A stretch of 64,000 bases of DNA, from the NCBI GenBank assembly GCA_964023205.1, contig OZ026835.1, forward strand, positions 24,317,817-24,381,816. Direction: 5' to 3'. The notes beneath the pieces are model-generated. The model worked only from the letters and a program-made list of their open reading frames with translations. It did no database searches and was not told the DNA's origin. Origin of the DNA: Lutraria lutraria. Lineage: Eukaryota; Mollusca; Bivalvia; Venerida; Mactridae. The translations under genes and the position numbers were made by a program. Positions within the stretch are counted from its first letter, which is position 1. Every line of letters starts with the position of its first letter. Below are positions 1-31,045 of the stretch, one piece after another.

Positions 1-2876
1 TAAAAGTCATAAAATATACTATTATATAGCTATGTGAACTACTTCAGCTGTGCCAGTTTGTGTTAACCTATGTTAAGTAACTATGTCATAAAAATTGACA
101 TCTTAATAAATGTCATAATTAGAATTTCTTACTGTTGATCACTTATGAGTATATATAAGAACTTGTCTTCTCTTTAAATCACATTTTAAAATATGTATTT
201 TTAATACAATAAAGATATCATTATTCAAATTACCATTTTTAAAACCATTAAATTACTTTATATATGCATGTATATATGACATTGTTTTGTTGAGTGGTAA
301 TGCACATGTAAATTGTAATCAGTTTTTGAACACAATCTGACAAGCTACAATATCAGCATCACATCATCACAATAAAATGTCATACATAAATGACATGTAT
401 ATAACATCATGAAAATTTTCCATATGTCAGACAGAATCATACACCGTCACACACCTGTGAACATGACTGGTTAATCAACACTTGTTGATTAGTTTTTTAG
501 CACTTTGAGTCTTTCTTGTAACAAAATTAAATACAACATTTACAATAATCTTATCAGATCTATGAACCAAGTTAAGTTGGAACTCTATTCAGCTAGTCTA
601 GATAGATATTTAGAGTTTGATAAAGTTATACTGTATGGGGGCAGTTCTGTAGAAGGGCTAATTATCACCAACAGAATTACAGTATTCAATAAATAAATAG
701 CATCTGATAAACCACGTTTTTTTATATATTTTTTTCATTTCATAACAACCAACTGGCATTCAGGAAACAATTTTTAAACCAAATTTATCTCTCTCTTTTA
801 ATTTAACTTACAGACTGACAGATTCAGAGGGTTAAAATGTACATAACAGAATTAGTACTGTTGTTTCATTAATTTAAGTTATTCGCACATAGCACTTTTT
901 AACAGTTACACATTTTCTCATAATTCTTTCTAATCTTATAAACATATTGTATATTTACATAACACCTTGGTATTCTGGTTTTCAAACATTTTTTAATAAA
1001 ACAATTAATAGTTTCACAAATATAAATGTGTAATCAATACGCATGAACTAAGTATATTTAACACAGTCTAATATAGACTATTACTGTACGCTGATATTTT
1101 TATCATATCTTTCAAACATTATTCAATAATTAACGAAATGCGAACTTACCTTGATAAATAAATTATTGCATAGTTCGAGTTGCTAAGGAGTCGACTTCTT
1201 TTTACCACCATCAACAGCAACAAAAACTAAATCCAAGAAAACACTTTTTATTTAGAAATCCGAGCAGCTGTGTAATTGACTAAATATGCTTAACAGCTGG
1301 TACCCGGAACAGTCCATTTTCGCATAAAATGAATCTGTCAAAAATAGATCTACTTGTATTGATTTTATGTCTGATTATATATAATATATACACACACACC
1401 ATTTATTGATGTACAAATTAGGATATGGTGTTATGAATGTGAGAAAAGATTACATAGATCTCATCATTTATTTTTCAGAAGGCCAGATAAACTGTCCTCC
1501 CTATTTCCTAAAATAGACTCGTCGGAGAGTCACCCGTGTACGTGTTGATCTTTTGTAATTAACGCAGACGCTTTTTGTCTTACACGACGGTCTAATATTT
1601 ACATGTCCTAGTTAAAAAAGTACGCATGTAGAAGACAACTTAGGAATCTGATGCGAACATTATACATTTTGACGGAACGAATACTAAAGATCGACGTTCT
1701 TCTTGGAAATTCAGGTATTTGATAAGTTTTACTTATATTTGTGTATTTTAAATTTTACGTTTTTAGATTCATAAATAAATTTGGTTGAACCGTTGGTGTT
1801 GAGTGAAGTGCTTAAAAATTACAAAATGTAACACTCGAGATTTGGGTCTCGTAGATAGTTGCATCAGTTTGATTGGTTTGAATTTTATATTGCCCACGCA
1901 GGGGTTGTAATATTCCGGATTTAAAGCCGCCAGGGGCACTTTTGAGTTTTTTTAGGGGGGGGGGTACGGATTGGGATGGCTGTTAGCACATGCAAGCATC
2001 TGGATCACTTGGGCGTTTTTCCTATTCACTAACGCTTGGTTAACAAGCGTTTATATACACAAGAGTATTTGCAATGTATTGCAGAACAAAAATTCGAGTA
2101 ATATTTAGCTTAAAACTCGAAGATGAACTTTTAAATCGTTGACAATTCATTAGTTAATGGGTCCCATCAAATGAATAATTATCAGCAACTTTTTAAACAT
2201 AGGTAGCAATTCATTTTGACACTGACTCGGCCCGAAATATTTCAACAAGATCGAGGTAAGAAATATTGTGAAGGAATCCGATCCCTATGATGTTGTCATT
2301 GAAATATTTTGAATTGGCTGCTATTTCAGAATGTAGGACAAAAGCTCTCCCGGACAAAAGCTCCCCCGTTCATTTTGATAGGGGAGGACAAAAGCTCTCC
2401 CATTGATTCACTACCCCGGACAATCATTCCTATATTATGTATTAACTTACAAAAAATAGTGGGTGGGGTAGCAAATTTGAAGGATCTCTCTTGAAAGCAA
2501 GTTCCAGGCATTAAGTCTCTCATCTTGTGTCAGGTTTTTCCCCCAGTATTTTTGGAACATGACCCATACCCTTGGGATTGGTAATTTCTTCAGTGTTTTG
2601 TTAGAAATTGAGAAAATATGTGCTATTCCAATTTTGAAATTTTTATGGTAATACCATGTATATGTGAACTATATACATGAATGTATTCATTTGTCAAATA
2701 CTTGTGTTTGTCAAAATATGTGTATTATCTATAACTTGTAAATATGTTATACTCTCCATAATGGAGGAATGGATAAAGTAGACGCTCACTATCCTTTAAG
2801 AAAAAAGCAACTTAATACAAACAACTTAAACCAATGCTTCTTGTAATTCGTGACGTTTCGTTATAGTTTTTCTTGT
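1..2876. other. Non-coding flank, no gene supported
   Basis: No open frame here has an ATG start, family resemblance and splice logic together. The one long frame (505-696) opens with TTG and has low-complexity composition. A consensus splice donor on the minus strand (AAG then GTAAGT, near 1144-1150) could end an untranslated exon, but nothing confirms it. A run of ten G lies at 1955-1964. The region is the left flank of the transposon that starts at 2880. Confidence 0.5.
2336..2401. repeat. Three copies of a 16-bp tandem/near-tandem repeat
   Basis: GGACAAAAGCTCTCCC occurs at 2336-2351 and 2386-2401, and with one change (CTCCCCC) at 2352-2367. The first two copies abut and the third is 18 bp further on. 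No function is evident. Confidence 0.85.
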
Positions 2877-2879
2877 TAA

Positions 2880-2914
2880 GGCCACACCAATTTGATAACT
2901 TGTTCATCGGATTT
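2880..2914 (+). repeat. Left terminal inverted repeat of outer MITE
   Basis: It begins GGCCACACCAATTTGATAAC and matches the reverse complement of 15972-16006 with one substitution. The preceding TAA (2877-2879) is the target duplication. Confidence 0.9.
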
Positions 2915-3652
2915 GCTGCTCGCTTTTTATCAAAATAATATTATTTTTCTGTTTTTTGCCTCCGACCGCTCGCTCACGTCAAAAAATCCGAAACGGTACG
3001 GTGTCCCGGATTTTATCACTACAAAATTGTATTCTGCGGTGTAGCCCCATTGAATATGCGGCCCTCTTTGTGATACCGAGATAGTATGATATTTTTTAAA
3101 CGGAATTTATTCGGTTAATTCCGAATGTTTAAACATAAGAAGAATGTCAACTGCACGCGATATCATAGAAAATCAGAAACACTTCGATTATCGTAGGTAA
3201 GACCATAGAAATATAGCGAAAAGTAGCGAGAAATAGGTGCCGTTGGTTTCCAAAATGGTAGCGCTCGTGGCCTAGTCCAACTTATTAGACTATTTGTGAC
3301 GGCGAGACACTTTCGATTTGGCCCACTCCTGCACAGTCCATCAAAAACTGTATATATGATTTTGTGTGTGTGGAAAAGCATCCATTGAAACCCGTTTGGA
3401 AAACGAAACTGCCGGTGTCATGGTAAAAATCGCCTATTTTCGAAAATTTGTTTTGCAAACAATCTGAGTTTACAAGTTTAAAGGTCATATTCATCGATCC
3501 AAGAGGGCTTGGAATTGTTAAATATACACAAATTTAAGTACATTTACAAAATTTCACTTTTCAAAAATGAAAATTGGCCGCATAAATCGAAATAAAAAAC
3601 TATCAAATATCGCACCTTCCGAGAGTATCAACGCGGTTATCTTTCCTTGGCG

Positions 3653-3674
3653 TGTGACGTCATTGTTGATGTTA
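3653..3674 (+). promoter_or_regulatory. CRE-containing motif upstream of the P2X7-domain gene
   Basis: A palindromic TGACGTCA (3655-3662), the consensus CREB/ATF site, sits inside a 22-bp stretch about 85-107 bp before the start codon. The same stretch with one mismatch recurs inverted at 14901-14922, upstream of the transposase. It lies 171 bp inside the left end of the element. It may be a promoter element, a transposase-binding subterminal repeat, or both. Confidence 0.6.
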
Positions 3675-3759
3675 ATCAATGTAAACACACTAGCTGCACA
3701 TAATAGCGTAGCTTTATTATAGCTGTCAATAACATTGAGTACACTTGATTTTTACGGAG

Positions 3760-6376
3760 ATGGACGATTATTTTGATTATTCGTCATGTACGGAAGATCG
3801 TTTCGTTGTTCAACCGTACCAGTTTGAGCCTATTGACGAAATAAGTGAATTTGACACGGATATTTCTACTAGCGATTTTGGGGATGATTCTAGCATTACA
3901 GATGTTTCATCATGTTCACACCGTGATGTTTCAGACTGGTATGTATTATATATATATTTAATCCAAATAGTAAAATTCACCAACTGCAAATAATACAGAA
4001 GTATATTTAAAATTATTAGCTAATAAATGATAATTATGCATTACTCACTTCGACAAGCCGAATTTCTATACAATCCGGTTAAATCCTTAATCGCGTGTAA
4101 TTTTTTTTTCTAACACATTTTTTTTACACAGAACGTATAAGCTCGTCATTTCTTCCTTACAGTAAATGTAGGTCATACTTTAATTAACATAACCAATCAA
4201 AACCGAGAACTAATTGATCACGCAACAGGAATCCATATGACACGTGTTCAGCATCTGTATTTTGGACACTTCGAATGCAACTGTGCGTGACTTGTCGATC
4301 GGTCGATGTTGCTATGCGACTGTCCATTGGAATGTAAAAATGGAAAGTACGTGTGACAAACAATTAAGCATCAATTAATTTCAGTGATTGTCGACTGATA
4401 TCCTTATGACATAATTATATATGATCTTTTGTGTGATCTTACAAACAATAACCAGGGCGCATAAAAAATGTGCTTGAAAAACAATCGAATCTAATTAAGT
4501 TCAAACTGAACGAACTAATATCAAACAAACTTGCGCATTCACTAATATTTATAGTCAGAATTCTCTTGGTCAAAAGCGAATTATACGCTTACGTAATATA
4601 TGGTAGTGATCATGCAAGCACTAGGTCATTAATATTTTCTTTTTGTTAGATATCTACTTGTCTTAATTCAAAATACGAATCGTATATATATACAATACAA
4701 AACAGCAAGGTGAAATTATACTGCTCTTACTTTTGACAATACTTTGTCAAAATGGGATCAATCTTACAATATAAATAAGTTAGATAATATGTACTGAATT
4801 GTAAATTGATGCTTTTGATCTGTTCTGTAAATTTATTGTTTGTAAAATGTTGCATATAATTCACGAATGTAATAGAATAATGTTTATATGCTGATGTGCT
4901 GTAATACATACAGTATCTGTTCTGTTCAGTGCATTGACCTCTCCAAGGTGACGTAAATAAATATATACTTATATTTTGCACTTCCCTGTCTCTGTAGTTA
5001 ATTTATGTCTCAGTGTAAAAACAAACACAAAGGTATTCTCCCCACAAGGTGGCGTAAATAAATATATATTTATGTGTTAAAGTTCAAACTGAATAATTGA
5101 ACCTGTTTGTTTGGCATTGTATAAGGTGTTAATGATCCTTGTTGATCTATGTTGGAAAGCGGTCTATAGTTATCCATTTTTTGTATTATACGTTGATGTA
5201 TGCTGATATTGCCATGTATATGTTTGTACTGATTTAGAAATAAACATTGCATTGTATTGTAAATAAATTTGACATCATTCAGTATTTTAATCTACATCAA
5301 GCCAAAATTGCTTACATCTGACTGCAAGTAATCGCAATTCGGATTTATCAGTTGTGTCTGCTGTTATCTAAATAAATAAATCTAAATTACATAAAAAAAT
5401 AACATTTGAAAATATAAAATTTCACGCCATTTAGTATATCCGACTGTAGTGTTGTGCCTGATGATGAATGATGAACGAAAACGTAACAGTTTAGACAGTC
5501 TTCCATTTTGATTAATATATGGGTATGGCTTCATTGAGGGGGGAGGGGCTAAAAAATATACCAGTACTCAGTATGTCCTACACTCATTAAATCTGTTAGC
5601 TCAATCAAATTTGATCAGTCAGTTTTTGCCTTACATTCCTGTTCGCCATTATTCAGTTCAGGACACCACTCATTTTATAACACACTTCAATAGCATTACA
5701 GCTTCCGCAACAGTTCTACTGTATTTTAATTTTGCTTATGCTCTGTAAACTATTTCAGGTGTATGTGTGGTCAGTGCACTGAGATGCAAACAGTGACTGA
5801 AGAAAAATGCTGTAAGAGTATGAATGTTGTCGACGATAAGGCGAAAGACCTTAAATGTGTCACAGAACATGAGGGGTTCCAGGTGAACTGTCTCAACATC
5901 CATGTCTTGGAAACCTCCTACTACGAGTACGTTATCAACCATGGACCTCTTGAAGAAGATCAGCTGATTCATGAGTATGATATAATTATTTTCTAATTGG
6001 TATTATGCTGTCTTCATATTTTATTGTTCGTTGATAAATGATAAACTTTGGTAGTGGTTTATATCAGACCGACATACAGCATTCTTTGATAGTTAGTTAG
6101 GTGTGTAAGAAAAAATATAAATTTCAGTTGATCGTTTACTGTGCAAATTAATATGCATCCTCATGAGTTGATGAGCTTAATTTCTTTGGTTCTTACTTTA
6201 ATAGATCATGTGTCTATTTCAGGTTGTACAGATATTTAGCGTACAGGAGGTTTACACGTTGGGTGTATGGGCTGCTTGGAAGAAGATGTCGAAAAGTAAT
6301 TCCATCATGTGTTGTGACAGCCATTCGGAACCGATTTCCGTCCGAGCAGTATTGTGGATTTTTATACCCACAGTGA
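3760..6376 (+). CDS. P2X7 intracellular-domain-like protein, 3 exons, 182 residues, intact
   Basis: Exons are 3760-3938, 5759-5974 and 6223-6376. Donors are GTATGT and GTATGA, the acceptors are TTTCAG, and both introns are phase 2. The ATG at 3760 follows an upstream in-frame TTG and is the first usable start. Residues 1-59 are acidic and Ser/Asp-rich. The rest is the zinc-binding cysteine domain known from the P2X7 receptor C-terminus: W60-C-M-C-G-Q-C66, then ATM-like TEMQTVTEE, K-C77-C78, a CVTEHEGF block, VNCLN, RYLAYRRFTRW (135-145), G-LLGRRCRKVIPSC (148-161), IRNRFP (166-171) and QYCGF (174-178). There is no transmembrane segment, so it is the domain alone, as in many stand-alone invertebrate proteins, not a channel. 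It sits inside a Kolobok-like transposon, convergent with the transposase. Its role there is unknown; nucleotide, zinc or membrane binding by analogy with P2X7 is inference. Family call is strong, function weak. Confidence 0.88.
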
Positions 6377-6449
6377 AATGTTAGAGCAGACATTAAGGAT
6401 GTTATAAGTGATGCATTTTTAATTCCATACCTTCATTTTTATGTTTTGA

Positions 6450-6455
6450 AATAAA
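6450..6455 (+). terminator. Poly(A) signal AATAAA for the P2X7-domain gene
   Basis: AATAAA lies 74 bp after the TGA at 6374-6376, a normal distance for cleavage and polyadenylation. A second near-match (AAATAAAAA) follows around 6495. Confidence 0.55.
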
Positions 6456-6702
6456 TAATGAAACCATAGAATCTGAATGTTTTAGCTTAACTCAAAATAA
6501 AAATTCACTGCAAAAGAGCAATTGAATAAAATTGATAATGGCGCCAATTTTGAAAATTCTATTTCTGCTGTGCTGTTTTCATGTATGTTTTATATTTATT
6601 TGTTGATCAAGTGATATAAAAATTCTACCAGGTATGTTTGGTATTTTATTATTCATATTCCATTGTTTGTTTATATCGAGTTAAAACCCCTTTTCAAGAA
6701 TC

Positions 6703-6903
6703 AGTGTCATATAAGGCGGACAGTTCACCTAAGCATCCTTACTGGGAAGAACCGATACTAGAATCCCATACTCTGTAAGCAACTGCCTACTTTCTCACAT
6801 AAAGAGACATGGTCGGTAGCAGGGCTCAAAGCCATGACCCTGTACCAGTGAGAGGTTAGTGATTTGAAGTCGGCGACCTTTACAACTCGACCACTGAGGT
6901 AGG
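6703..6903 (-). mobile_element. tRNA-derived SINE, minus orientation
   Basis: Read on the minus strand, the right part holds a B-box-like GGCTTTGAGCCC near 6820-6835. The body shares 'gcggacagttcacctaagcatc' and 'cctactttctcacataaagag' blocks with a second copy at 37255-37441. It lies in the gap between the two convergent transposon genes, so it entered after or with the element. The similarity between the copies is visible by eye, roughly three quarters identical. Confidence 0.7.
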
Positions 6904-8148
6904 TCTTACTATTCCATAACTGAACATAATCAGTCTACAAATACTCAAATTATAATACATATAGTAAGTGAAGTGTTAGAACTGGATGTGAATTGTTTGC
7001 TCAGAACAAATATTTAATGACATCACTTTGGATAAACTGGTTTACAACCGAATGAGTATAAAATTGCCAGCATAAACAACACTTTAATGTCCATGTATAA
7101 GGAATGCTTATTGTTGAAGAAAAACAAAATTGGCTTTACTGAGTAACAATCATACTTTACTTCTATAGTACTACATTGTACAGACATACTAATAAACAAA
7201 ACCATGAACTTAACAACAAATCAATACTGGTAAATTAAATAACCTAACATTTTTATAAAAAAACAACCTAACATTCACCTGCTCTTCTACATGATCACAA
7301 AATAACAAAACAAGAGACAGGACTAGTCTTCAACTTTTTAGGTTATCCCTCAAGTAATGCACTAGGAGTTGCAAACGGAACAGAATTACCTTATATATAC
7401 ATCATGATGCGAGAAATAAACATAAGTACTCAAAAAATTGATCAATCACAAAATCCGACTCAATGGGTCAGTTGATGACAATAGTCTTACTGAAATGCTT
7501 TCCCTGAAGAAATTAAGATGTTGTGCAAAGAAAACCAGGAGAAAAGATGCTTAGTTTCTTAGTGAAAATAATTATTGGATATATTTGGTTTAAATCCCTT
7601 AAGATTTGTATGATATATATTATGCACAAAAAGTTCAATAAAAAAATATTTTTTTCAATATTGTCAGCAAAACAATTGTACACAAATTTCAGACAAAATA
7701 CTAATATAATTAATATGTCCATGAATGATCTGAATAAAAGTCAATGATTGAATCTGCTAATATGAGCGTCAACTACATCTTGTTTGGATCTATGTTGAGC
7801 CTGTCTGGGTGTACTTTGTGATAGGTGTAGAGGTCGTTTTTTGTCGGTAGTTGTAAGAAGTTTCTTGGCAGATCTGTAACTTGGTTGATACTCGCGCATC
7901 AAAAGAACTTCTTCCATCAACTCCTTCACATAATCTGAAACACATAAAATTGTTATATTATTACAAGTATTTTTGCACTCATATACCAAATACACATTTA
8001 CCTAGTTTCAGCTTACTTCCATGCTTGATCAGAATGTAAGCTTTGGATTCATAACTCGACTGCTGAACAACTTCATGCTTATTTGATTAAATGTAGGATG
8101 TCTCGATTTTTAGTTTACACATATGTAATACGTTATGACTTTATGCTA

Positions 8149-8403
8149 ATACCCCTGCCGCCGCTTTGACACTAAGAATGCAACAGTTCACTATAAGGCT
8201 AAGTTCAAGGGGGCATAACTCAGCAATTAAAATTGCGTCTTGCACATCTACACTTCAAGGCGATAACATATTTCGAGTTTCATTGCAATCGCTTAAAGAA
8301 TGCGGAAGTATTTCACTCCACAAACTTTATGCAGACAGACGGACCAACAGACTGGATGACTTCAATATACCCCCTCTCAAACTTCGTTGGCGGAGGTAAA
8401 ATG
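8149..8403 (+). repeat. Interspersed repeat in transposase intron 7 (copy 1)
   Basis: It starts 'ctgccgccgctttgacactaag' and ends 'ggcggaggtaaaatga', with an ACAGACxGACCAAC-type track near the end. It matches 9191-9481 with scattered changes and one indel. It is probably a SINE-like or short non-autonomous element; no B box is clear. Confidence 0.7.
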
Positions 8404-9190
8404 AACAAAAGGAAAAAAATTCCTTCAGTGTCATTTTTGTGTAATAGTGCCTCTACATTTTTCATTTTCACTGATTTACACTAAATAAAATCTTGAAATC
8501 TTACCAAAAGTTTGGTGCACCTTCACTTCTTTTGCTACTGCAGCCCCTTTTCTACCCTTTGGATACGACACAGAATATTGAAGTTTTCCGCCTTTCGTTC
8601 TTCGTTGATCTCGGTCACAATTCTCATTGAAATGAAGAGCCGCGAGGAACAGCCTGTACATAAAAAAATATAAGTTTTCAAACCAACATCTTTTATCAAT
8701 AGTTAAAATCAGTAGTTAAAATTGAACAAGAAGCTGCATTCAATAAACACATGTGCAATTGGTGACAGCATGACATAACGCGTACATACGTTCAGACAAG
8801 ACAATCAGTATTATATGCTCCAATGCTGTCAAATCAGAACATAATCAAAAGAAATACTGTAATACTCATACTTGTGAATAATCCGAGTTCAATTCACTTT
8901 CTCAACAACCAATATAGCCTTCGACAGTCATAGTTGACCTATTTTGTTACAATGTCAGAATCCAAGAATTACAACTGAGTATCAACCTCCCAGCTTCCAA
9001 CATACAGAATTAACAACAGAGAAGTGGTCAGAGGCTATTGATTTAACGACATTTTGACCTATTGACCTTGGAAACCATCACACATTTCAGTAGAAAAGTA
9101 AGAGATCATTTGTGAACAAGGTACATCTTAGAAATCCTATCTACATTAGTCTGCTACATAACATAACTAGAGCTGTCACAGTGGTGAATG

Positions 9191-9481
9191 ATACCCAGCT
9201 GCCGCTTTGACACTAAGAATGTGATAGTACACTATACGGCTAAGTTCAAGGGGACAAAACTCTGCAATGAGTGGAACACTGGGCATGAAAATTACGTCAA
9301 GCACATCTACACTTCATGGTGATAGCATATTTCAAGTTTCATTGCAATCACTTAAAGAGTGTGGAAAAAGTTCGCTCCACAAACTTGTGATATTATAAGC
9401 AGGCAGACAGGCCGACCAACCGACCGACACAGTGACTCCAATATACCCTCTCTCAAACTTAGTTTGCAGAGGTATAATGAA
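9191..9481 (+). repeat. Interspersed repeat in transposase intron 6 (copy 2)
   Basis: It is the same family as 8149-8403 in the same orientation, with an extra segment ('gagtggaacactgggcatg') in the middle. It ends just before exon 6 at 9526 and does not disturb the donor. Confidence 0.7.
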
Positions 9482-11409
9482 GGCAAGACAGAGGTCTTAC
9501 TCCCAAGTCAGAATTTATTAGATACCTTGCTTCCATATTAGCATGCTTGTAGTGAGTTGATTTGGGCACAAATTCACAAATAACTTTGTGAAAAGCTTCC
9601 AAAGAAGATGTTTGTTCTGCTGGTGACAATTTCTTCACATCCTTCACTAGAATTTTATTTTCAACAACTTTTTTCAGTTCAGCATGAGGCTTGTACCCTG
9701 AGAAGAATAAAAAAGAATAAACCTATTATAAATATCAAACTAGAGTTTGTCAGAAATAAGATGAATACTCACAAGTGGCGCTTTGACATCTCAATATGTT
9801 TATATTCTTTTTCACCCTAGTCATAGAAAAGGGACATTTCTTTGCCCCTAGCCACTAACAATAGAAATGGTATTTCTTAGATTTGATTATTTGAAAGTCA
9901 TATTGCTAAAATGTACAAATTACACATACAAACTTGATCAAGTTTATCAAACAGGCCAAAGTCGGGAATTGAGAAGCACCTCACTATGCTTATATACACA
10001 AATTACAAGAGCAATGACTTGTTACATGAATTACAAACTGAAGATCCAGGGCATTAAAAAAACATGATGCATCATTAGCGCAGGGCTTATCATCTAGAAA
10101 CTACAAAACATCATTCAGACTAGATAAAACAAAATAATTGTAAATCAAACATGACACAAGAATTCTACAACAGGTATCTCATGCTCTTGATGTCTGCTTC
10201 AATGTTTTGTCACCAGTAATCTGCTCATAAATAGTGTGATAGTTAAGGGTATAACGACATGTACTTGACATAGTATTTTAACTTCAGATTTCACAAAACA
10301 TTAATGATGAATAGAACTTGATGATACCTTCCTTCATCCATTTCCTGTTAGAAATCTCGCCATGTTCGCATTTTGGAAATCTTTCACCATGACCTTCATG
10401 AATATTCAAAACATGATTAATGATGGACAACTATTTCTGCTGAACTAAGTCACCATCACCAATACAAGTGGTTGCTAACAGAACGCGCCCATGCCTGAAC
10501 TTTCTCACAACCCTTTTTCTTCCCGGCTGCCTCAAGTTTCTTGTAAACACCTGTAGAACCAAAGACTTATATTATACCCACAATCACAAAATGCCGATTA
10601 TAAGTTTCTGATAAAACACTGAAAACAATAGCTATTTAACTAACGTGCCAAGTGTTAACTTATATGAATTCCAGACTATTAGAAATCACATGACAGTCAA
10701 TAAAATGGAGCTGTAAGAATTTATGAATTTTGAAATAAATTGAATAATTGATTAATAACAACAGAATTTCATATAACAGTGCTCCAGGAAAGTTGGTAGT
10801 ACAATGCTAATGCCCCTGCTGAACTTCCCATATTTCAAGAGAAGAATACCACAATAATACGGACAAAACCTTTCTTAGAAAAAAAATTAATTCAAAATAA
10901 AGTTAAATATTCAGTTCATTGTGGAAACATTAAAGAAATGAAACACTGCTACTATTTAGAAATTTACCTTTGGCAACATGCCAAACATCAAACCAGTGTA
11001 CAATATCTGGTTGCTCATCTTTCATGTATTTTTTCACCGAACAATGTCTATCAGTTATGAGATGCGTCACTCTAATACGATTATGGACAGTCAGGAAATT
11101 AATTGATCTCTTCAAACCTTCTAATTCCATGTGGTACGAGTTCTTCACTTCATTACTCTGTAAGTAAAAGAAACATAAGCAGAAGTAAGTAAAGTTGTCA
11201 TGAAGCAGTTTGCATAAAATTTGGACCATTCTACAACTGAATATTGAAACACTAATCAAAGAACTCATGATCAGCATTCATGTTCAGATAGAGCACAATC
11301 TCAGCCATTGCAGAGGAGGAAAACTAATCTTACAGATAAAAAAATGCAGTACATGTACTTGGTCAATTAATTTAGAACTACACACTGTCAATTGTAGTAT
11401 TTAAATTTG

Positions 11410-11725
11410 GCCAAATTCTCCTCCATATTACCGTATAAATTCACATTTTAATAGGATACAAAACACTACTGAAAACGAAAAAAGATATGATCCCAGTGGG
11501 GTTTGTACCCTCAGGTATATCAACCTGTTATAAATTCCTATGAACTGAACGAAACATTTTGAAATAAATATTCTCCTCCATATAACTGTATAATCATGCC
11601 TTAAAACAAAACATTTTATCAAGCTGAAAAAAGTATGGTCCCAGTGGGGTTTGAACCCATAACCTTCAGGACCTTGACGGCACGGACCCGTGCCTATGAG
11701 GCACGGACCCGTGCCTATGAAAGAC
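11410..11725 (-). mobile_element. Tandem pair of tRNA-derived SINE units in transposase intron 3
   Basis: Two units each hold a B-box-like sequence on the minus strand: GGTACAAACCCC (11497-11510) and GGGTTCAAACCCC (11643-11657). Both are preceded by 'ctcctccatat.accgtata' type sequence. The outer end has a 21-bp block (GGCACGGACCCGTGCCTATGA) present twice (11679-11699 and 11700-11720); each half contains an inverted GGCACGG/CCGTGCC. Confidence 0.65.
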
Positions 11726-11835
11726 AAAACACAACACATTGGTAAACATTTCTACCAAATATTTTTAGAAATCCACTCAGTCACAGATGACAAAGTTACT
11801 GAGCAGAAACAAACAAAAAGTACAGATTTTTTACC

Positions 11836-12046
11836 TTCAAAGTCTAATTGTGACCTTGACCTTCAAGATAATGAACTGAATCTTGCAAAGGAGACATTCC
11901 CACGTATAAATTTACATTTCGGCCAAATATTAAAATCCACCAATGGACAACAGATTTGTAGATCCAGACAGACGCACACACACACAGAGACGGACAAGGT
12001 GAGACTCCAATATACATGTACCCCCAAAACTTTGTCATGTGATTGA
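11836..12046 (+). repeat. Interspersed repeat with 'tgaccttgacctt' and CA-rich tail, intron 3
   Basis: The motif 'ttgtgaccttgaccttcaa' followed by a 'cagacagacgcacacacacaca' track is a common layout of short molluscan interspersed repeats. It lies just downstream of exon 3 (12140-12907) in intron 3. There is no second full copy in the window; a distant relative of the 'tgaccttgacctt' part is near 30950. Confidence 0.45.
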
Positions 12047-14069
12047 GGGAAATTAGGAATCTTGATTGTTTGCACTGCAAAATGTTATATACATTTTCAA
12101 GAAATTTGATAAAGAATATGCTATAACAGTATATATTACCTGCACCAGCTGAATATCTAATATATGACCAGTCGCCATGTCCATCATGCTGTAGGAACCA
12201 AACATTGCTGTATGACCAGGGGAGCAACATCTGGCATCCCCCCCAAGTCTAACTTCTCGACCACTTTCTACTATATCTTGTACAACCTGGGCCTGGTGTG
12301 ACCCCCACACTCGTCTGATGGTTGGTGTCAGATATAACTCTTGAAGTTTGAAATAAACTCCGGAGCAAAATGTCTGGACTCCTGCGAAGTTCAAAGCTCT
12401 AAGGAATCTCTGTGCACTACATCCAGAAAACATAATAGCTGCACAGAGTTCCAAATGTCCCATGGAAAGGGTACCTGAGTTTGATTGACTGCACCAAAAT
12501 CCAGAAACATCACAGTAACTACAAACCCAGGTACAATTAAGTTGAGCCCCTTGCACCTTTTTGTTCACATGTGCTCTCCTACCACAAAGTTCACATAATC
12601 CAAGTAATGTATCAAGTTTGTCCTCATACACAATGAACTTCCTGACTGTACCATACATTACAATTTCATCTTCTCGTTCTTCTTGTTCAATGAACGATGA
12701 TTCAGATTCCGGAGCCCAGGTACTATCATCAGTATCGTCTCTAAAGCTTGACTCTGAAATGTCACTCAGAAAGCTCTCACACAAGTGGGAAGTTTTGGGT
12801 TGGTCTGGAAGCTGAATCTTTTCATATTCAACATCATTCTCCCAGTCTGTCTGTGTTGAAGAGTCAACTAAGTCTGAATTTGTCTGTGTCTGTTTAGCAG
12901 AAGTGGCCTGATAGAAAATTAAAAAAATAACTTTGATTAGTGAGGAATTATTACATTTTGCATAGAACAAATTACATAAATGTACATTGAAGCCAAATGA
13001 ATTCATTATAATCTAATAATACCTACAATAACACTATCATGATTAATATCCATGACCAGGTTATATAGTTTTTCTTTATCATGAAGTTCTAGTGAGATTT
13101 TGTCTATAATCAACCTCATGAATCAAAAACCTTTAGATCATTAATAAGCACCATACATATGATTAGAACTGGTAAAGAAATAAGCACCATAAATAAGAGA
13201 ACCAAAAACCAAAAACAAGGCCGTTATGAAAACACTTACTAAGTATACTTATTGATAATTTTATGGGCAAACTATAGAATATAACCAAATCTCATATAAA
13301 TGTCTCGGTGAACTTCATAATTTTTTATCATCCCAACATTTGAAGTGAAAACGCGGCTTATGTTGAATATATGTAGTTAATTAATAAATGTTGATAAAAT
13401 GCATGCTTTAATAATTAGAAGGTCCTTCAATAACATTGACAAACAAGTAATCCGAACCTAACTTGGTAATCAAAAATAATCATAAATATCATATAATCTT
13501 ATATAAAACTGCATGGACTTACCCATCTTGGAGTTTGAGACTGAACTGAGAACTGACCAGCCTCAGTACAAGGTAACTTTGCATGATTGGCAGCTATAGT
13601 GGCAAGGATGTTCAGATCAACTGTAGAGGATGTTATACTGATAGGTTCAACAGGGGTGGTCTCAGACAAATTATCTTCATTATTAAAATGTGTCATCTGA
13701 AATAGAAAATACAGATGTCATAATGTACCAAAGAGTATTACTAATATGAAGTACAGCCCTATATGAAGTATAAGTATTTGACTATCATCCTGGAAATTAC
13801 AGTTGAAGAAACAGTCCGCAAAACTAGCACTAGTCCGGGAAAGTAATTATTGATTTGGACAAGTAGCTTTTCCAGTTATAATGTAGAGTATAAAGGAAAA
13901 CTATTCACTTATGGTGATTCGGACAAATAGTTCCAAATACTGAATTCACACACTTGATTAATGACCCGTTTAACTGGGTATAATTCTCACTAAAATTATA
14001 ATATTCATGCTTTAGTCTGGCTGTAGAGCCTATATCTACTCAGTCATGATATGTAAGGAAACAACAAAC

Positions 14070-14143
14070 ACTTTTTTTTTATTGAATAACAGGCTCCTGT
14101 GGTATAACTACCACAGGAGCCTGTTATTCAATAAAAAAAAAAG
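14070..14143. repeat. Near-perfect hairpin in transposase intron 1
   Basis: Two arms of about 34 bp, 'attgaataacaggctcctgt' plus flanking T/A runs and GGTA, are exact reverse complements separated by a 4-base loop (14105-14108). The structure lies in intron 1 of the transposase. It could be a fold-back MITE or a recent inverted duplication. Confidence 0.85.
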
Positions 14144-14368
14144 TTATTAACGCCGTAAAAATACGACAAAAATCCCTGACTGTGGACAAATGGCTTAATT
14201 AAAATGAATTCATAAGCTATCATTGAACCATCATTGAACCATACATGCATTGCAACTGGTAAAGGCATCAATACCCATCTACAAATGACTGATTAGCAAG
14301 GAGTCAAAGGACGCGATAAAAACGTGAAACAAAATGGCGGGTGGGGTAAAAATTAGCGAGTTACTTAC

Positions 14369-14725
14369 ATCTAATCGTCTTCTTTTACTCGAAATTGAAG
14401 CTGCTGATGGTCTGGGTTTAGGTTCGTGTTGTTTCATAAGAAACAGTGTGGGAACAGCCTCAGGTTTTAATGTTCGTCTGAATTTTACTCCATGTAATCC
14501 GATTCTGCGAAGTAGCGAATCGGTCCGCTCGAACGCGTCTTCTGCAAAATGTTTAGAGCACAGTTTGCTGTATTGTCCTGGCTTAAATGCACGTCCTTTT
14601 TCATCGCTCCTGCCGAGTCTCTGCACCCAAATACGTCTCACAGACTCAAGTTTGGGGAAGGAAAAGTAGCCTACTTTGTCTCTCCCAGACACAGAAGAAC
14701 AGCCGTAGGCTGCACAACAAACCAT
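14369..14725 (-). other. Transposase exon 1: THAP zinc-finger DNA-binding domain
   Basis: The ATG at 14723-14725 opens 119 codons ending in phase 0 at a GTAAGT donor (14363-14368). The C2CH set (C4, C9, C56, H59) and the invariant Pro, Trp and AVPTLF end are all present, so the zinc finger itself is undamaged. In THAP-bearing transposases such as P element and Kolobok, this domain recognises element ends or subterminal repeats. Confidence 0.9.
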
Positions 14726-14900
14726 TATTTATCCAAAGATTAGAGTCCGAATGTACAGAATTCTAACACGAACTTACAAACAAAAACAAACAATAGTCAC
14801 GTACGAAAGAAAATGTTAACGTTTATGATGTATAATATGATCGAACTCAAATGTAAAACTAACGCTCTCGGTCTAATGTGTATACACGGTGTAGGCACGC

Positions 14901-14922
14901 TAACATCAAGAATGACGTCACA
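14901..14922 (-). promoter_or_regulatory. CRE-containing motif upstream of the transposase
   Basis: TGACGTCA (14913-14920) lies about 190 bp before the transposase ATG and 184 bp inside the right end of the element. With its flank it repeats the left copy at 3653-3674 in inverted orientation, 21 of 22 bases alike. A shared promoter, a transposase-binding site, or a remnant of a longer inverted repeat are all possible. Confidence 0.6.
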
Positions 14923-15971
14923 AAATAAAGGGGAGTAACTCTCACTGTTTTTTTTCGGAAATTTGTTATCGTGTTACAAAATTGCGTTTTAAAGGCCTTT
15001 CAGTATTTTTTTCAAGCCGTATCGTGGTATTAATGAGTACTTATGCTTATAAACAATTTTATTTGAGATAGTATAACTATTATACATTTTTCTATGAATA
15101 TGACCTTTAAATTAGCTGCCACGACAAAGAAACGTAGGCAAGTTAAACTTAAACCAACTTTCGTTAACCCACGGAACCCAATATTAAAGAACGATTTAGA
15201 ATAGAACTGTATTGACGGTAGTTGAACACGGAGTGGCTAAAATATGTTGACATCGGTTATTAGTAGTCAAATCAACATGCAAAGTAAAATTTTAAGTTCA
15301 ATATTTAAAATTTGACACATAATTTTAAGGCACATTCATGCAGATTATTGTTATTTCTTTCGATTTAAGTATACTGAAGACAACTTAGCATATTTGATGA
15401 GGGTCGATCTATCCTTCACTAATAGTGCTTGTTTATATGGGGATTAAGGGTAAATTCTTTTAAAAAATGTCTCCAAAATTTAACATTTATATCTTGTGTC
15501 CAAGTTGTGTACAGTGTCATTTCAGTGATAGATCCAGTTTACACTATAAATTAATTACGTGGTTCTATTTTAGTAACTGTAACAAGAATATGGTATACAA
15601 TGTATATATATTTTTCTGTAAGTTTAATATATTTTTTGTGTGTTTAACTTTCTTTATGGGTGATTTATCAATTTTCATATTAATAAAGAATATAATAAAG
15701 ACATTAAAAGTGTTTTCACTAGTAAACCTAAGGGTTATTGAAACTTATAAAATTTAAAAATATAGATTCTTTATTTAATTACTTGATCACATGCTTGTTT
15801 GAAATAGAAAAGCTTTTTAGATTTTTATTCGCTTGTTCGCTCGCTTGTTCGCTCGAAGGAAAATAAAAAATATTATTAAAAAATTGCTTTCGCTCGCTTG
15901 GTCAAATTGGAAAAATAAAAAATAATATTGAAAAAAATATTTCGCTCGCTCGCTTGCTCTCTTCAGAAATA

Positions 15972-16006
15972 AAATCCGATGAACAAGTTATTAAATTGGT
16001 GTGGCC
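15972..16006 (-). repeat. Right terminal inverted repeat of outer MITE
   Basis: It ends AATTGGTGTGGCC and is the reverse complement of 2880-2914 apart from one base. It is followed by TAA at 16007-16009, repeating the left flank. Confidence 0.9.
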
Positions 16007-16009
16007 TAA

Positions 16010-18624: not shown

Positions 18625-19790
18625 GTCCCCTGCCATACCGGAGGGGACTATAGTGTTTGTTGTCGTCCGTCCGTCTGTCTTTCCGAAGTGGTTTCCGTAC
18701 GGTAACTTCAGTTAGAATTGAGGGATTTCAATGAAAGTTGGTATATGGATAGCTTAGTGCATCACCTAGAGTGGGATTGCATTTGAGGTCAATTGGTCAA
18801 TTATCTAGGTCACTGTTACTAAAAATATAAAATTGGTTTCCGGATGATAAATTCAGTTAGGGGTGATGGATTTCAATGAAAATTGGTGTATGGATTGCTT
18901 AGGGGATAACCTAGAGTAAGATTGCATTTGGGGTCAATAGGTCAGATATCTAGGTCATTGTTACTAAAAATAGAAAATTGGTTTCCGGATGATAAATTCA
19001 GTTAGGGGTGATGGATTTCAATGTAAGTTGGTGTATGGATAGCTTGGGGGATAACCTAGGGTAGGATTGCATTTGAGATCAATAGGTCAAACATCTAGGT
19101 CACTATTACTAAAAATAGAAATTTGGTTTCCTGATGATTACTTCAGTTAGGGGTGACGGATTTCAATGAAATTTGATGTATGGATAGCGTAGGTGATAAC
19201 CTAGAGTTGGATTGCATTTGGGGCAATAGGTCAAACATCTAGGTCACTGGTGACTGTTTTCAATGAAAGTTTGTGTATAAATAGCTTAGGGGATTATCTA
19301 AAGTGGGAATGCATTTGGGGTCAATAGGTCAAATATCTAGATCACTGCTACTAAAAATAGATATTGATTTTCGGATGATAACATCAGTTAGGGGTGACAT
19401 ATTTCAATGAAAGTTAGTATATGGATAGCTCAGGATATAACCTAGAGTTGGATTGCATTTGAGGTCAATAGGTCAAACATCTAGGTAACAGTTACTAGAT
19501 ATAGAAATTTGGTTTCCGTATGATAACTTCAGGTAGGGGTGATGATTTTCAATGAAAATTTGGTGTATGGATAGCTTAGGGGATAACTTAGAGTAGGATT
19601 ACATTTTGGTCAATAGGTCAAATATCTAGGTCACTGAAATTTGGTTTCTGGATGATAACTTAATTATCATCATTAAAAAATCTAGACAGATGGTGCTGTA
19701 TAAACATCAGCTAACATTCCAATGATATGTGCTGGAAGGGGACTGCATGCAATACTGACTTTAAGCTTGTTTTTTTAAAATCTCTTTCTT
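18625..19790 (+). repeat. Minisatellite of about 115-120 bp units, copy A
   Basis: It begins with 'gtcccctgccataccggagg' and a GTCCGTCCGTCTGTC track. About eight units follow, each with 'ggatttcaatgaaagttggt', 'tatggatagcttaggg' and 'caataggtcaaa.atctaggtcac'. It interrupts the end of the decayed gene fragment. Confidence 0.8.
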
Positions 19791-19804
19791 GTTTGGTTCA
19801 CGTT

Positions 19805-20800
19805 ATCCAAGGAATATGTAAGTTCTGCCAGCGGAACATTCACATTACATCGGCTATATTTTGATATATATAATTGAAAATATCTGATAATGATGATCAG
19901 CATGACTTGTAATACTAATCTTAATGTTCTGCCGGCAGAACACTGATATAATTATATTAACTATCAATATTTCTTGTTCGTCTTTAGTTTCTTGAGAAAA
20001 TGTTCTGCCAGAGGAACATTTACAACCGACGGAACATTCACATCACAAAAACTGTATTTTGATATATTTCTAGTCCAACTTTACAGTTTCATGAGAAAAT
20101 GTTCTGCCGGCAGAACAATTATATACTGAAAGTTCATTAATTAGGTATTAGAAGAGATGTTCCGCCGACGGAACATTTTCCTCACAAAAACTGTTCTTTT
20201 AATTGATTCATTCCTTGTGAGACTTTTGGAACAGTTTCTTGAGAGAATGTTCCGCTGGCGGAACATTCACATCACAAAACCTGTTTTTTGATAAATTTCC
20301 TATGCAATTTTGCAGTTTCTTGAGAAAATGTTCCGCCGGCAGAACAATTATATTCTGAAGATTCATAAATTTTAGAAGAGATGTTCTGCCGGCGGAACAT
20401 TTTCCTCACAAAAACTGTATAAATTTTGAATTGATACATTTCTTGTGCCACTTTACAATTTCTTGAGAAAATCCAGCGGAACATTCACATCACAAAACCT
20501 GTTTTTTGATGGATTTCTTGTGCAATTTTGCAGTTTCTTGAGAAAATATTCCGCCGGCAGAACATTCACATCTCAAGATCAGCATTTTGATATGTTTCAT
20601 GTGCAACTTTACAGTTTCTTGAAGAAATGTTCCGCCGGCAGAACATTCACATTTCAAAATCTGTATTTTGATATATGTCATATGCAACTTGAACAGTTTC
20701 TTGAAAAATGTTCCGCCGGCAGAACAATTTTTTTTGTGTGATTCAATAGAATATTGTATATATATGTTTGAATGAAATGTTCCGCCAGCGGAACATTTCA
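19805..20800 (+). repeat. Array of 18-bp palindromes (TGTTCCGCCGGCGGAACA type), copy A
   Basis: About 14 copies of the palindrome or close variants are spaced 55-110 bp apart. Spacers such as 'acaaaaactgtattttgata' and 'aactttacagtttcttgaga' recur between them. TGTTCTGCCGGCAGAACA (20100-20117) keeps full symmetry by paired changes; others, such as the one at 20382-20399, carry a single mismatch. Open frames through it on both strands are by-products of the repeat. Confidence 0.85.
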
Positions 20801-21301
20801 TAGATATATGTTAATATTTTATGTATATTTATATTAAAATAACAGATTTTATGAATTATATTTTCTACAAATTCAAGTTTTTTTGTTCTCTTCATTCAAA
20901 TTTCCAGTCAAACTATTGAAAAATACATGCATATTTTCAGCAAAATTTGCTGAAAATGGCCATTTTAAATGGGATTCAGTGGACAATCCCTTTTTAAAAT
21001 GGACGGAGTTTTAAGTGAATATTCAGACAGAGCTTAATTTGTTAACTTTATTAGTTATGATGAATTGAATTCATCAAAACTAATAAAGTTATCAAATTCT
21101 GTTTTTGATGTTTATACTTAATTAAGTATTAATGCATCAACATTGCTTATAAATTTACAATTGTTGGTCTTGATATAATGAGTTTATACTTAAAATATTG
21201 CAGTTTTTGTATATACTGCTCTCAGTTTTGAAAATTCTTACAAAAACAATGATGGTTGTATTATACTATTTATACATGCATGAATAATCAATTCATAATT
21301 T

Positions 21302-22016
21302 TTGTCTCAATGTAGATCAAAAGAGGACTTAAATGCATGCAGTTTTAGGGAAACAAAATGCTTAGATTTATATCTACAGAAAGATCAGTATTCACCCATT
21401 ACATGCACAAGTAGATTATTAAAATTGTGCATTCTTTCATCTTATTATTTTATATTAATGTCAACATTTATTTTGACATTGCAGGGGCACATATCCTTCC
21501 TGATGATTGGTCATACTCATGAAGACGTTGATGCAGCATTCAGTCACATCAGTGGAAAATTAACAAAAAGCTGATGTAAAAAAACCACAGAAATCGCTTT
21601 CTATAGTGGCAATTTCCAATTGGCTAGGACCATTTTTTGTGACGCAACCCCTACATTACAAAGTACAAAATGTGGTAAAAATGTTTGTGTCATTTTCAAA
21701 GGAAAGCATATAAGTCATGGATATTGGACAATGGAATTAATTCTTCAAAGATAAACCAACTTGGACTCCTGGTATTGTAATTCCAGACATAAAGCAAACA
21801 GACTGTTGGAACAAATTAAAAATATCAGCACGTTTTTTAAAACTCCACAGTCTGAGTCAGTTTAAGTTCTGTGAGAGGGAAGTGTTCAGTGACAGGAAAG
21901 TATTCTATGAGAAGCTGAATGAAGCAGACAATGTATTGAAAATATCAGATAATGTTTATCAGCATGGTATCCTAAAAGAAATGTTCCGCCGGTGGAGCAC
22001 TGCCATAAGTGTATTA
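21302..22016 (+). pseudogene. Decayed gene fragment with GHTHEDID motif, copy B
   Basis: It has the same layout as 17895-18624: acceptor ending at 21484, then GHISFLMIGHTHEDVDAAFSHISGKLTKS, and the same frame break in the 'ggaattaattcttcaaagat' stretch. The shared break shows the fragment was already dead before the duplication. Copy-specific changes include the TGA near 21571 and loss of about 14 bases around 21640. It ends at the same minisatellite junction. Confidence 0.6.
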
Positions 22017-23060
22017 GTCCCCTGCCATACCGGAGGGGACTATAGTGTTTGTTGTCGTCCGTCCGTCTGTCTGTCCGAAGTGGTTTCCGGACGGTAACTT
22101 CAGTTAGAATTGAGGGATTTCAATGAAAGTTGGTATATGGATAGCTTAGGGCATCACCTAGAGTGGGATTGCATTTGAGGTCAATTGATATTTATCTAGG
22201 TCACTGTTACTAAAAATAGAAAATTGGTTTCCGGATGATAAATTCAGTTAGGGGTGATGGATTTCAATGAAAATTGGTGTATGGATAGCTTAGGGGATAA
22301 CCTAGGGTGGGGTTGCATTTGAGATCAATAGGTCAAACATCTAGGTCACTATTACTAAAAATAGAAATTTGATTTCCTGATGATTACTTCAGTCAGGGGT
22401 GACGGATTTCAATGAAATTTGATGTATGGATAGCGTAGGTGATAACCTAGAGTTGGATTGCATTTGGGGTCAAAAGGTCAAACATCTAGGTCACTGGAAC
22501 AAAAAAGAAATTTGTTGACTGTTTTCAATGAAAGTTTGTGTATAGATAGCTTAGGGGATTATCTAAAGTGGGATTGCGTTTGGGGTCAATAGGTCAAATA
22601 TCTAGATCACTGCTACTAAAAGTAGATATTTGATTTACGGATTATAACATCAGTTAGGGGTGACATATTTCAATGAAAGTTAGTACAAATGTATATGGAT
22701 AGCTCAGGATATAACCTAGAGTTGGATTGCATTTGAGGTCAATAGGTCAAACATCTAGGTTACAGTTACTAGAAATAGAAATTTGGTTTCCGTATGATAA
22801 CTTCAGTTAGGGGTGATGATTTTCAATGAAAATTTGGTGTATGGATAGCTTAGGGGATAACCTAGAGTAGGATTACATTTGGGTCAATAGGTCAAATATC
22901 TAGGTCACTGAAATTTGGTTTCTGGATGATAACTTAATTATCATCATTAAAAAATCTTGACAGATGGTGCTGTATAAACATCAGCTAACATTCCAATGAT
23001 ATGTGCTGGTAGGGGACTGCATGCAATACTGACTTTATAAAGCTTGTTTTTTTTAAATCT
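22017..23060 (+). repeat. Minisatellite of about 115-120 bp units, copy B
   Basis: It is the counterpart of 18625-19790, with the same opening block and about seven or eight units, differing by one unit-sized loss and small indels. Confidence 0.8.
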
Positions 23061-23094
23061 CTTTCTTGTTTGGTTTACGTTATCCAAGGAATAT

Positions 23095-27563: not shown

Positions 27564-28055
27564 AACCTCCACCGGTTTGTTTTTGCCGCGCCGATCTTTG
27601 GCAAATACAGCCCCCACTTTTACGCGCTTTTGGGAAACAAAAACATTATTAAATTGTAGCATTTAGTTACTTATTAAAAAATTGTAAGTCCCATGTTTCT
27701 ATCTTTACTAGTTTTCTTGAAAAATGCAAAGAAAAACTGTCTTTGCCATGGCAATTTTTTTTTTATATTTAAAGAAACACTATGTAAGGGTGTGTAGGTA
27801 TCATAATTAACACAATTATTATGGTTTTGATCAATAAATATGAAATTTTAATTTTTAATTTTTGCCATGCATGGCAAAATTGCCATGGCAAATATTGCCA
27901 TGGCAAAATTTCCATGGCAAAACATTGCCATGGCAAAATTTATGGCAAGTTTAAAAAATTAGTAATTTAGTTAAATTACTATTACAGAAGTAAATTTCTG
28001 TAATAGAAAAGTTATTTAGGTGCGAATCGGCTTAGACCAGGTCTCGCATTTATTA
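27564..28055 (+). repeat. Left long terminal inverted repeat of the 17-kb insertion
   Basis: It starts AACCTCCACCGGTTTGTTTT and matches the reverse complement of 44112-44699 through to 'cttagaccagg.ctcgcattt'. It contains four perfect GCCATGGC palindromes (27745, 27882, 27897, 27927) and relics of more. It is about 100 bp shorter than the right copy because of fewer palindrome units and small deletions. Confidence 0.9.
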
Positions 28056-29060: not shown

Positions 29061-29063
29061 TTA

Positions 29064-30537
29064 GGCCACACCAATTTAATAACTTGTTCATCGGATTTTT
29101 TTTCTGAAAAGAGCAAGCGAGCAAGCGAAATATTTTTATTAATATTATTTTTTACTTTTCCAATTTGACCGAGCGAGCGAGCGAAAAAATAATTTATTTT
29201 TTATTTTCCTTCTTTCAAACAAGCCAGCGAACAAGCGAATAAAAATCTAAAAAGCTTTTCTATTTCAAACAAGCATGTGATCAAGCAAATAACGATTCTG
29301 TATTTTTATTAGTTTCAATAACCCTTAGGTTTACCAGTGAAAACACTTTTAATGTCTTTATTCTATTCTCTTTTTATATGAAAATTGATAAATCACCCAT
29401 AAAGAAACACACAAAAAATATATTAAACTTACAGAACAATACAATGTATACCATATTCTTGTTACAATTACTAAAATAAAACGACATAATATTGTATACT
29501 GGATCTATCACTGGAATGACACTGTACACAACTTGGAAACAAGATTTAACTGTTTAATTTTGGAGACATTTTTTAAAAGAATTTACCTTTAATTCTATAT
29601 AAACTAGAACCATGAGTGAAGGATAGACCCACACCAAAATATTCTAAGATATCTTCAGTATACTGGTATACTTAAATCAATAGAAATAACAATAATCTGT
29701 GTGAATGTGCCATAAAATTCTGTGCCAAAGTCAAATTTTTAATATAATTTTACTTTGCATGTTAATTTGACTACTGATAACTGATGTCAACGTACTTTAG
29801 CGACTCCGTGTACAACTACCGTCTGAACAGTGCTATTCTAAATCGTTCTTTACAATGGGTACCGTGGGCTAACGAAAGTTGGTTTAAGTTTAACTTGTCA
29901 ATGTTTCGGTGACGTGTCATATAAACTCAGATTATTTGAAAAGCGAATTTTCGAGAATAGGCGATTTTTACCATGACACAGGCAGTTATTCTTGCACTAG
30001 TTTCGTTTTCAAAACGGGTTTTAATGTGTGATTTTTCTACACACAACAAATTAAATATTCAGTTTTTGAGGGCTGGGCAAAATCGAAAGAGTCTCGCCGT
30101 CACAAACAGTTGATTAGGCCACGAGCGCTACCATCTTGGGAACTAACGTCACCCGTATTCCTATTCCTCGCTACTTTTTTTCTATGGTCTTATCTACGAT
30201 AATCGACGTGTTTCTGATTGTCTATGGTATCGCGTGCAGTTAACATTCTTCTTAGGTTTAAATATTCGGAATTACCGAATAAATTCCATTAAAAAATCAG
30301 CTACGATATTATACTATCTCGGTATCGTAAAGAGAGCCGCATATATAATTGAGCAACACCGCAGAATACAATATTGTAGTGATAAAATCCGAGACACCGT
30401 ACCGTTCCGGATTTTTTAAAAAGATGTCGGCACGAGCAAGCGGTCGGAAGCAAAAAACAAAAAATAATATTATTTTTCTAATTTTGATAAAAAGTGAGCG
30501 GCAAATCCGATGAACAATTTATCAAACTGGTGTGGCC
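29064..30537 (-). mobile_element. MITE of the outer-shell family, no Kolobok insert (1,474 bp)
   Basis: It has the same GGCCACACC termini, flanked by TTA (29061-29063 and 30538-30540). Read on the minus strand it aligns with 2880-3477 followed directly by about 15111-16006, crossing near 29918. It therefore represents the state without the 11.6-kb insertion. It is non-coding. Confidence 0.88.
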
Positions 30538-30540
30538 TTA

Positions 30541-31045
30541 AACCCTGGGGTCATAATTTGAACAAACTTGGTAGAAGTCCTCAGGACAATACTACACTGA
30601 CTCAAAATAACTAAGCTCTAGGCCGTGTGGTTTTGGACATGAAGATTTAAGTCTATATAAGTCTACATAAATCAAGCGTACATGGGGCGGGCCAATTTTT
30701 ACCATGGGATCATAATTTTAACAAACTTGGTAGAGGTCCGCTAGACAATGCTTATACACAAAATATAGAAGCTTAGCCTTGGAACTACATGTATGCACCT
30801 GGGTCTTGTGCACTGCATATCACCTCATGGAATTTAACAGTTAACCCTGTTATTTTCAAATATGTCAATGCATAACGGAAATACAGCCTGGACAAGGTCT
30901 ATGACACTCTTTCATGCTTGACCTCCGAGTGTGACCTTGACCTTGGAGCTACAGACCTGGGTCTTGAACACTACGCACTATCTTATGGTATTTATCAATT
31001 GTACTAAGTTATTTTCACATTATATGTCTAATCATTAGGGACAAG
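30541..31045 (+). repeat. Minisatellite remainder and 'tgaccttgacctt' repeat
   Basis: 30541-30790 continues the minisatellite of 28380-29060. From about 30790, 'acctgggtcttg.gcac.gca' occurs twice around a 'gtgaccttgaccttggagct' block (near 30953), a common molluscan interspersed repeat. Confidence 0.6.

Follow-up and report, generated by a model that had tools for sequence, protein, structure and literature searches.

A Kolobok transposon of Lutraria lutraria that carries a P2X7 ballast-domain gene beside its THAP transposase

The stretch of the bivalve Lutraria lutraria analysed here (64,000 nucleotides of assembly GCA_964023205.1, contig OZ026835.1, positions 24,317,817 to 24,381,816 of the forward strand; hereafter the window) contains, at 3482..15106, an 11,625-base-pair (bp) Kolobok element with the borders of a complete DNA transposon. 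Inside it, a gene for a P2X7 ballast-domain protein, KolX, lies next to a gene for a THAP-DDE transposase. We hold with high confidence that this is a Kol0-type Kolobok with KolX as a transposon gene; the element is placed in Kol0 by its KolX and not by a tree. The sequence-only reading that preceded this work knew of no published description of such a pairing. The pairing has, however, been published: according to Kojima and Bao (2022; PMC9587614), the Kolobok families reported originally, which form the Kol0 group, code for a transposase and for KolX, the latter is clearly similar to residues 476-595 of P2X7 with a ballast fold and seven conserved cysteines, and P2X7 is argued to have originated by fusion of a P2X4-like gene with KolX. 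Both the pairing and the link to the origin of P2X7 have thus been in print since 2022, and the window element is a further member. The idea of the sequence-only reading that such a transposon gene could have been the source captured by a P2X receptor corresponds to what Kojima and Bao argue. We add only a little to this: KolX is retained copy by copy, a subterminal repeat with a TGACGTCA core is conserved, and the subfamilies are mosaic.

The borders of the element are well defined. Exact matches to AGGTCATATTCAT occur twice in the window, as the left terminal inverted repeat (3482-3494, plus strand) and the right one (15094-15106, minus strand), and not once in 100 shuffles; TTAA adjoins both, at 3478-3481 and 15107-15110. 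The perfect 13-bp inverted ends and the TTAA on both sides claimed by the sequence-only reading are therefore real. The element begins with AG and ends with CT, in agreement with the 5'-RR...YY-3' ends by which the Kolobok superfamily is defined (PMC9587614). Its flanks are the left (2876..3477) and right (15111..16009) parts of a repeat that it has invaded, the right flank being an inverted copy of a stretch near 29-30 kilobases (kb) of the window, where an uninterrupted paralogue lies on the minus strand (29061..30541). Joining the two flanks at a single TTAA yields a sequence of which 1,505 bases spanning the junction align in one piece to 30541-29061 at 81% identity, and in a global alignment of the joined flanks with the paralogue 1,281 of 1,409 aligned columns are identical. 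This host repeat is about 1.5 kb long and has inverted ends (TTAAGGCCACACCA...), one copy being split and the other, inverted and uninterrupted, lying 13 kb away; the Kolobok therefore sits within another repeat.

The KolX gene is intact. Its three plus-strand exons are joined by GT/AG introns and encode 182 codons and a stop: exon 1 (3760..3938) with the start codon and an acidic N-terminal part, exon 2 (5759..5974) with CxCxxC, CC and C motifs, and exon 3 (6223..6376) with AYRRFTRW...VIPSCVV..IR..FP and the stop codon. The product matches P2RX7_C (PF20478) with an E-value of 5.2e-19 and 69.3 bits, against a curated cut-off of 23.5, and its likeness to the P2X7 ballast domain was found by sequence and by fold; the earlier claim of a complete three-exon P2X7-domain gene thus stands. 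Five cysteines of KolX (C61, C63, C66, C93 and C161) align with P2X7 cysteines; the CC pair (77, 78) is placed on the P2X7 CC pair in neither of two alignments. In a 23-row KolX alignment C77, C78, C93 and C161 are conserved at 90% or more. Seven zinc-binding cysteines are characteristic of the P2X7 ballast domain.

The transposase model comprises eight exons on the minus strand, from 14725 to 7741. Exon 1 (14369..14725) holds a THAP domain (PF05485; E-value 3.1e-16) and is followed by exon 2 (13523..13696). Exon 3 (12140..12907) contains CxxC pairs and the first D, in GGDARCCSPGH, and exon 4 (10968..11157) the second D, in ITDRH, with a DxxH motif (DVWH) after it and a weak MULE match below the cut-off; we take both D residues to be catalytic. 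The remainder consists of exon 5 (10328..10550), exon 6 (9526..9697), which ends in NMEA, presumably with the last catalytic E, exon 7 (8505..8653; LFLAALHFNENCDR...) and exon 8 (7741..7934), which has the stop codon. The combination of the THAP domain with DVWH after ITDRH is that by which a Kolobok transposase is recognized (C/DxxH after the second D), and relatives of the protein often carry THAP or PF20700. A piggyBac assignment was considered and rejected, a Pfam scan of the open 748-amino-acid transposase of another copy (see below) returning THAP (E-value 1.4e-15) and a sub-threshold MULE match only. The sequence-only reading was right about the THAP-DDE transposase inside the ends; it did not mention that exon 5 is broken by a 20-bp deletion, which shifts the frame, and by a stop codon. 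The 20 bp are kept in all five of the other copies whose alignment spans this place, and these five read W where the window copy has the stop. With KolX on the plus strand and the transposase on the minus strand, the two genes converge, as had been claimed.

To what extent KolX belongs to the element is best judged from its other copies. The genome was searched for TTAA plus the 13-bp end, with the reversed pattern as control, giving 52 matches (28 on the plus and 24 on the minus strand) versus none. Since TTAA was part of the search pattern, the other copies add no independent test of the target site. Facing ends at most 25 kb apart were paired by eye, 27 of the 52 ends being read inward, and seven pairs resulted: the window and, labelled by contig and megabase (Mb) position, C1:36.94, C1:43.38, C4:25.60, C5:20.55, C9:32.37 and C16:15.13. 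The C1:43.38 copy spans 24 kb and carries insertions. In all seven, the three KolX exons are present with GT/AG introns, open and beside the transposase, the product being 182 amino acids long in six and 181 in C1:43.38 (a 3-bp deletion). It had been proposed to ask whether other copies in the same genome carry both genes, and they do; the refuting outcome named beforehand, copies that lack the P2X7-domain gene, did not occur among the pairs. Because KolX is present, open and beside the transposase in every paired copy, we regard it as a gene of the transposon; this retention and the alignment of the joined flanks to an element-free paralogue bear out the claim that the ballast domain travels in this way.

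The transposase has fared worse. All eight exons are open and of unaltered length in one copy of the seven, C4:25.60, which encodes the 748-amino-acid protein and is 99% identical to the window copy. In C1:36.94, exon 3 has a frameshift, exon 5 is damaged and exon 7 has no match; exon 7 is also without a match in C9:32.37. C5:20.55 has a stop in exon 3 and a match to exon 5 that is cut. In C16:15.13, exon 2 is longer by an insertion of 6 bp, and exon 3 contains two 1-bp indels but stays open, with a changed stretch. C1:43.38 has two stops in exon 3 as well as damage in exons 2 and 4. Twelve unpaired ends were read in addition. Parts of the element lie at several of them: its left 1.0 kb (L009), its left 3.3 kb with KolX exon 2 partly aligned (L015), its right 0.75 kb (L020), about 0.2 kb of the right end (L026, L027 and L028) and patches totalling 4.8 kb (L025). 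Three (L012, L023 and L024) have just pieces away from the end, and two (L018 and L019) have no match to the element.

As a measure of selection, the ratio of nonsynonymous to synonymous substitution rates (dN/dS) was computed for six of the seven copies after removal of transposase exons 5 and 7 and of any codon containing a gap or a stop. The copies form two subfamilies, one with the window, C4:25.60, C5 and C16 and the other with C1:36.94 and C9. In comparisons across the two, KolX has a dN/dS of 0.17-0.27 and the transposase exons used have one of 0.16-0.19; in comparisons inside a subfamily, that of the transposase is 0.23-1.37, from few changes. Together with the within-subfamily ratios of KolX given below, this is the pattern expected for genes that are selected in active copies and drift after insertion. 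The subfamilies are mosaic. In bins of 500 bases, the window and C9 copies are 95-98% identical from the left end to about 7 kb; beyond that point, as far as the right end, identity is 80-94%, apart from a single bin at 64.5%. By transposase exon, dS reaches 0.39-0.41 in exon 3 against 0.15-0.18 in exons 1 and 2; exons 4, 6 and 8 show 0.03-0.05, and their dN/dS of 0.45-0.93 comes from very few changes. From this identity profile, transposase exons 1 to 3 and the right end differ in history from the rest of the element.

Several points weigh against our overall reading of the element and its KolX gene. First, KolX is about a quarter as long as the transposase, and its survival in seven of seven copies is for that reason a weak argument by itself. 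Second, its differences are few (dS 0.08-0.11 between subfamilies), its within-subfamily dN/dS is 0.38-1.02, with few changes and one pair at a dS of 0, and the mosaic structure means that rates of different parts of the element are not comparable. Third, the copies are not all independent. In the comparison of flanks (500 bases each side, 12 flanks), those of C1:36.94 and C9:32.37 are alike, at 99.2% over 500 and 95.3% over 386 bases. Since these two share both flanks they represent one duplicated locus, which the absence of exon 7 from both also fits, and there are at most six insertions. Fourth, the paralogue of the invaded repeat lacks a TTAA at the junction, where it also shows gaps of 11 and 2 columns. 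Fifth, outside the window's family the linkage to a transposase was checked in one KolX gene, at C11:20.62 Mb. As regards the duplicated locus, either the duplication covered more than the element or the element is itself part of a larger repeat; a 105-bp remnant of a left end, 98% identical, lies about 1.4 kb beyond the C9:32.37 copy (locus L030, 2397-2501).

How would the two genes work together? From the ends, the target sites and the family, the THAP-DDE transposase would move the element into TTAA, and KolX is the transposon's second gene, maintained by selection that acts on the element. Most likely, KolX would serve as a small zinc-binding cofactor, assisting the transposase at the ends or regulating it. 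We infer, at about even confidence, a cofactor of transposition, and favour this over an accessory or regulatory role. The latter, in which KolX would guard or control the element inside the cell, for instance by countering host silencing or by responding to a nucleotide, is possible but on balance unlikely. The P2X7 ballast domain has a binding region for guanosine diphosphate (GDP; PMC7016195), and two of its five GDP-contacting residues, R546 and R578, align with KolX R135 and R167, although GDP binding is not secured.

A bolder form of the cofactor reading, which we consider distinctly doubtful, would have KolX obligatory for transposition, acting at the ends or on the transposase, the P2X7 ballast being a refitted cofactor and the 'ancestral synteny' of PMC7016195 being the gene set of a transposon instead of host genes whose linkage was conserved. 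That 2020 paper describes the domain across animals, reports ballast genes linked to two markers in an 'ancestral synteny' from sponges to molluscs, and shows an Ixodes gene model that joins a 'TAHP' (sic) domain to a ballast domain; 'transpos' has no match in it. One of its linked markers may be a Kolobok transposase, which is worth asking.

The ends have a further structural feature. Inside the 13-bp ends, the two ends of the element agree in one 22-bp stretch in inverted order. On the left this is TGTGACGTCATTGTTGATGTTA (3653..3674, plus strand), which has the core TGACGTCA and lies about 85 bp ahead of the KolX start codon. On the right it is TGTGACGTCATTCTTGATGTTA (14901..14922, minus strand), which agrees with the left in 21 of 22 letters and lies upstream of where the transposase starts. 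Within the window, the palindromic core is limited to 3655-3662 and 14913-14920. Six copies were examined at both ends, and in all six the stretch has the same letters at both; C1:43.38 agrees on the left but is off by a single letter on the right. Because the repeat lies upstream of both start codons, it would as likely be a shared promoter element, which we take to be of the kind named 'CRE-like', as a binding site used in transposition.

Ballast-domain genes are not confined to this family. PF20478 has 81 exon-level matches in the genome at an E-value of 0.001 or less, all above the cut-off, versus none in 14 control genomes. Most fall outside the window's family; the 81 include exon 3 from six of the seven paired copies and not that of C1:43.38. 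Two further matches (C18:1392615 and C18:1817198), with one TGA each, lie about 4.9 kb inward of 13-bp ends. It could be argued that some of these other genes were taken over by the host, as zebrafish Nanor is proposed to be a likely domesticated KolX (PMC9587614). We regard this as improbable, since many of the matches are dispersed copies with like scores that resemble transposon families: the same 106-amino-acid open frame recurs in 14 of the 81, on many contigs, with a second exon match about 1.1-1.3 kb away in 11 of the 14. In the one such copy that was read (C11:20.62 Mb, locus L041), a piece of transposase lies beside KolX. Here, KolX-like exons at 976-1062 and 2232-2387 on the plus strand face a minus-strand segment (8232-7996) with GDGRNDSPGH and LVTDAH that matches the transposase at 32.5% identity (E-value 1.1e-7), and a simple scan for TTAA with inverted 14-mers found no ends. 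We read it as a diverged second, dispersed KolX family with the same convergent order.

Elsewhere, 22 of 33 candidate relatives of KolX have E-values of 0.001 or less and 21 of the 22 carry PF20478; the nearest are in Ruditapes, and the 16 named ones are all from molluscs. In Pecten maximus, the entries for a KolX relative (P0009) and a THAP relative (P0030) each give a contig of 202,267 bases, which suggests that they are linked. Eleven of the 22 are publicly annotated 'P2X purinoceptor 7-like', as though they were host genes, but that the ballast gene is a host gene picked up by the element, or a chance neighbour of its insertion, is virtually untenable and refuted for the window element, as KolX lies within the ends in seven of seven paired copies, at seven places on five contigs, the window, C4:25.60, C5:20.55 and C16:15.13 copies have outer flanks without a match to one another or to those of the two flank-sharing copies among the 12 flanks (those of C1:43.38, compared among eight loci, match none of them), and the same pairing is reported for Kol0 elements (PMC9587614).

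Further features were noted elsewhere in the window. Between 15100 and 64000 there is no stop-to-stop frame of at least 130 amino acids. Long inverted repeats at 27564-27941 and 44208-44699, separated by about 16.3-16.8 kb, have arms of 191 and 127 nucleotides that are 96-97% identical. Arrays of TTTGCCATGGCAAA-like palindromic units lie at their inner sides, and the structure is possibly a large non-autonomous element. At 18689-24314, two sets of tandem arrays, with units of about 145 bp and of 81 bp, repeat each other about 3.3-3.4 kb apart.

Taken together, real copies confirm that the P2X7 ballast domain is a transposon gene. Bivalve annotations of the type 'P2X purinoceptor 7-like' should accordingly not be taken for receptors or host genes. 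The C4:25.60 copy, nearly identical to that of the window and with every transposase exon open, is natural material for studying the function of KolX.

Among known systems, the Kol0 lineage (Kolobok-1_XT type; PMC9587614) shares with the window element the TTAA target, the RR...YY ends, the DDE transposase and the possession of a further gene that encodes a P2X7 ballast-domain protein; the window element is set apart from its description by a length of 11.6 kb, introns in both genes and a broken transposase of its own. Xenopus XKol elements (PMC6004289) likewise have a TTAA target, A-G ends and THAP and DDE motifs, with comparable full lengths of about 6.8-13.9 kb. Their end sequences differ, however, and neither 'KolX' nor 'P2X' appears in the main text of that paper. 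KolobokP, which is common in bivalves (PMC9587614), belongs to the same superfamily and also has a second gene opposite to the transposase strand, but it is distinguished by long terminal direct repeats and a His-Me nuclease, and it shows no strong preference for a target. In contrast, the window element has a P2RX7_C second gene, a TTAA site and no long terminal direct repeats, its first and last 1,000 bases sharing no direct match longer than 18 bp. Finally, KolX has sequence and fold in common with the C-terminal ballast domain of P2X7 and with Nanor (PMC7016195); unlike P2X7, it has no channel part and is a stand-alone protein of 182 amino acids encoded by a transposon.

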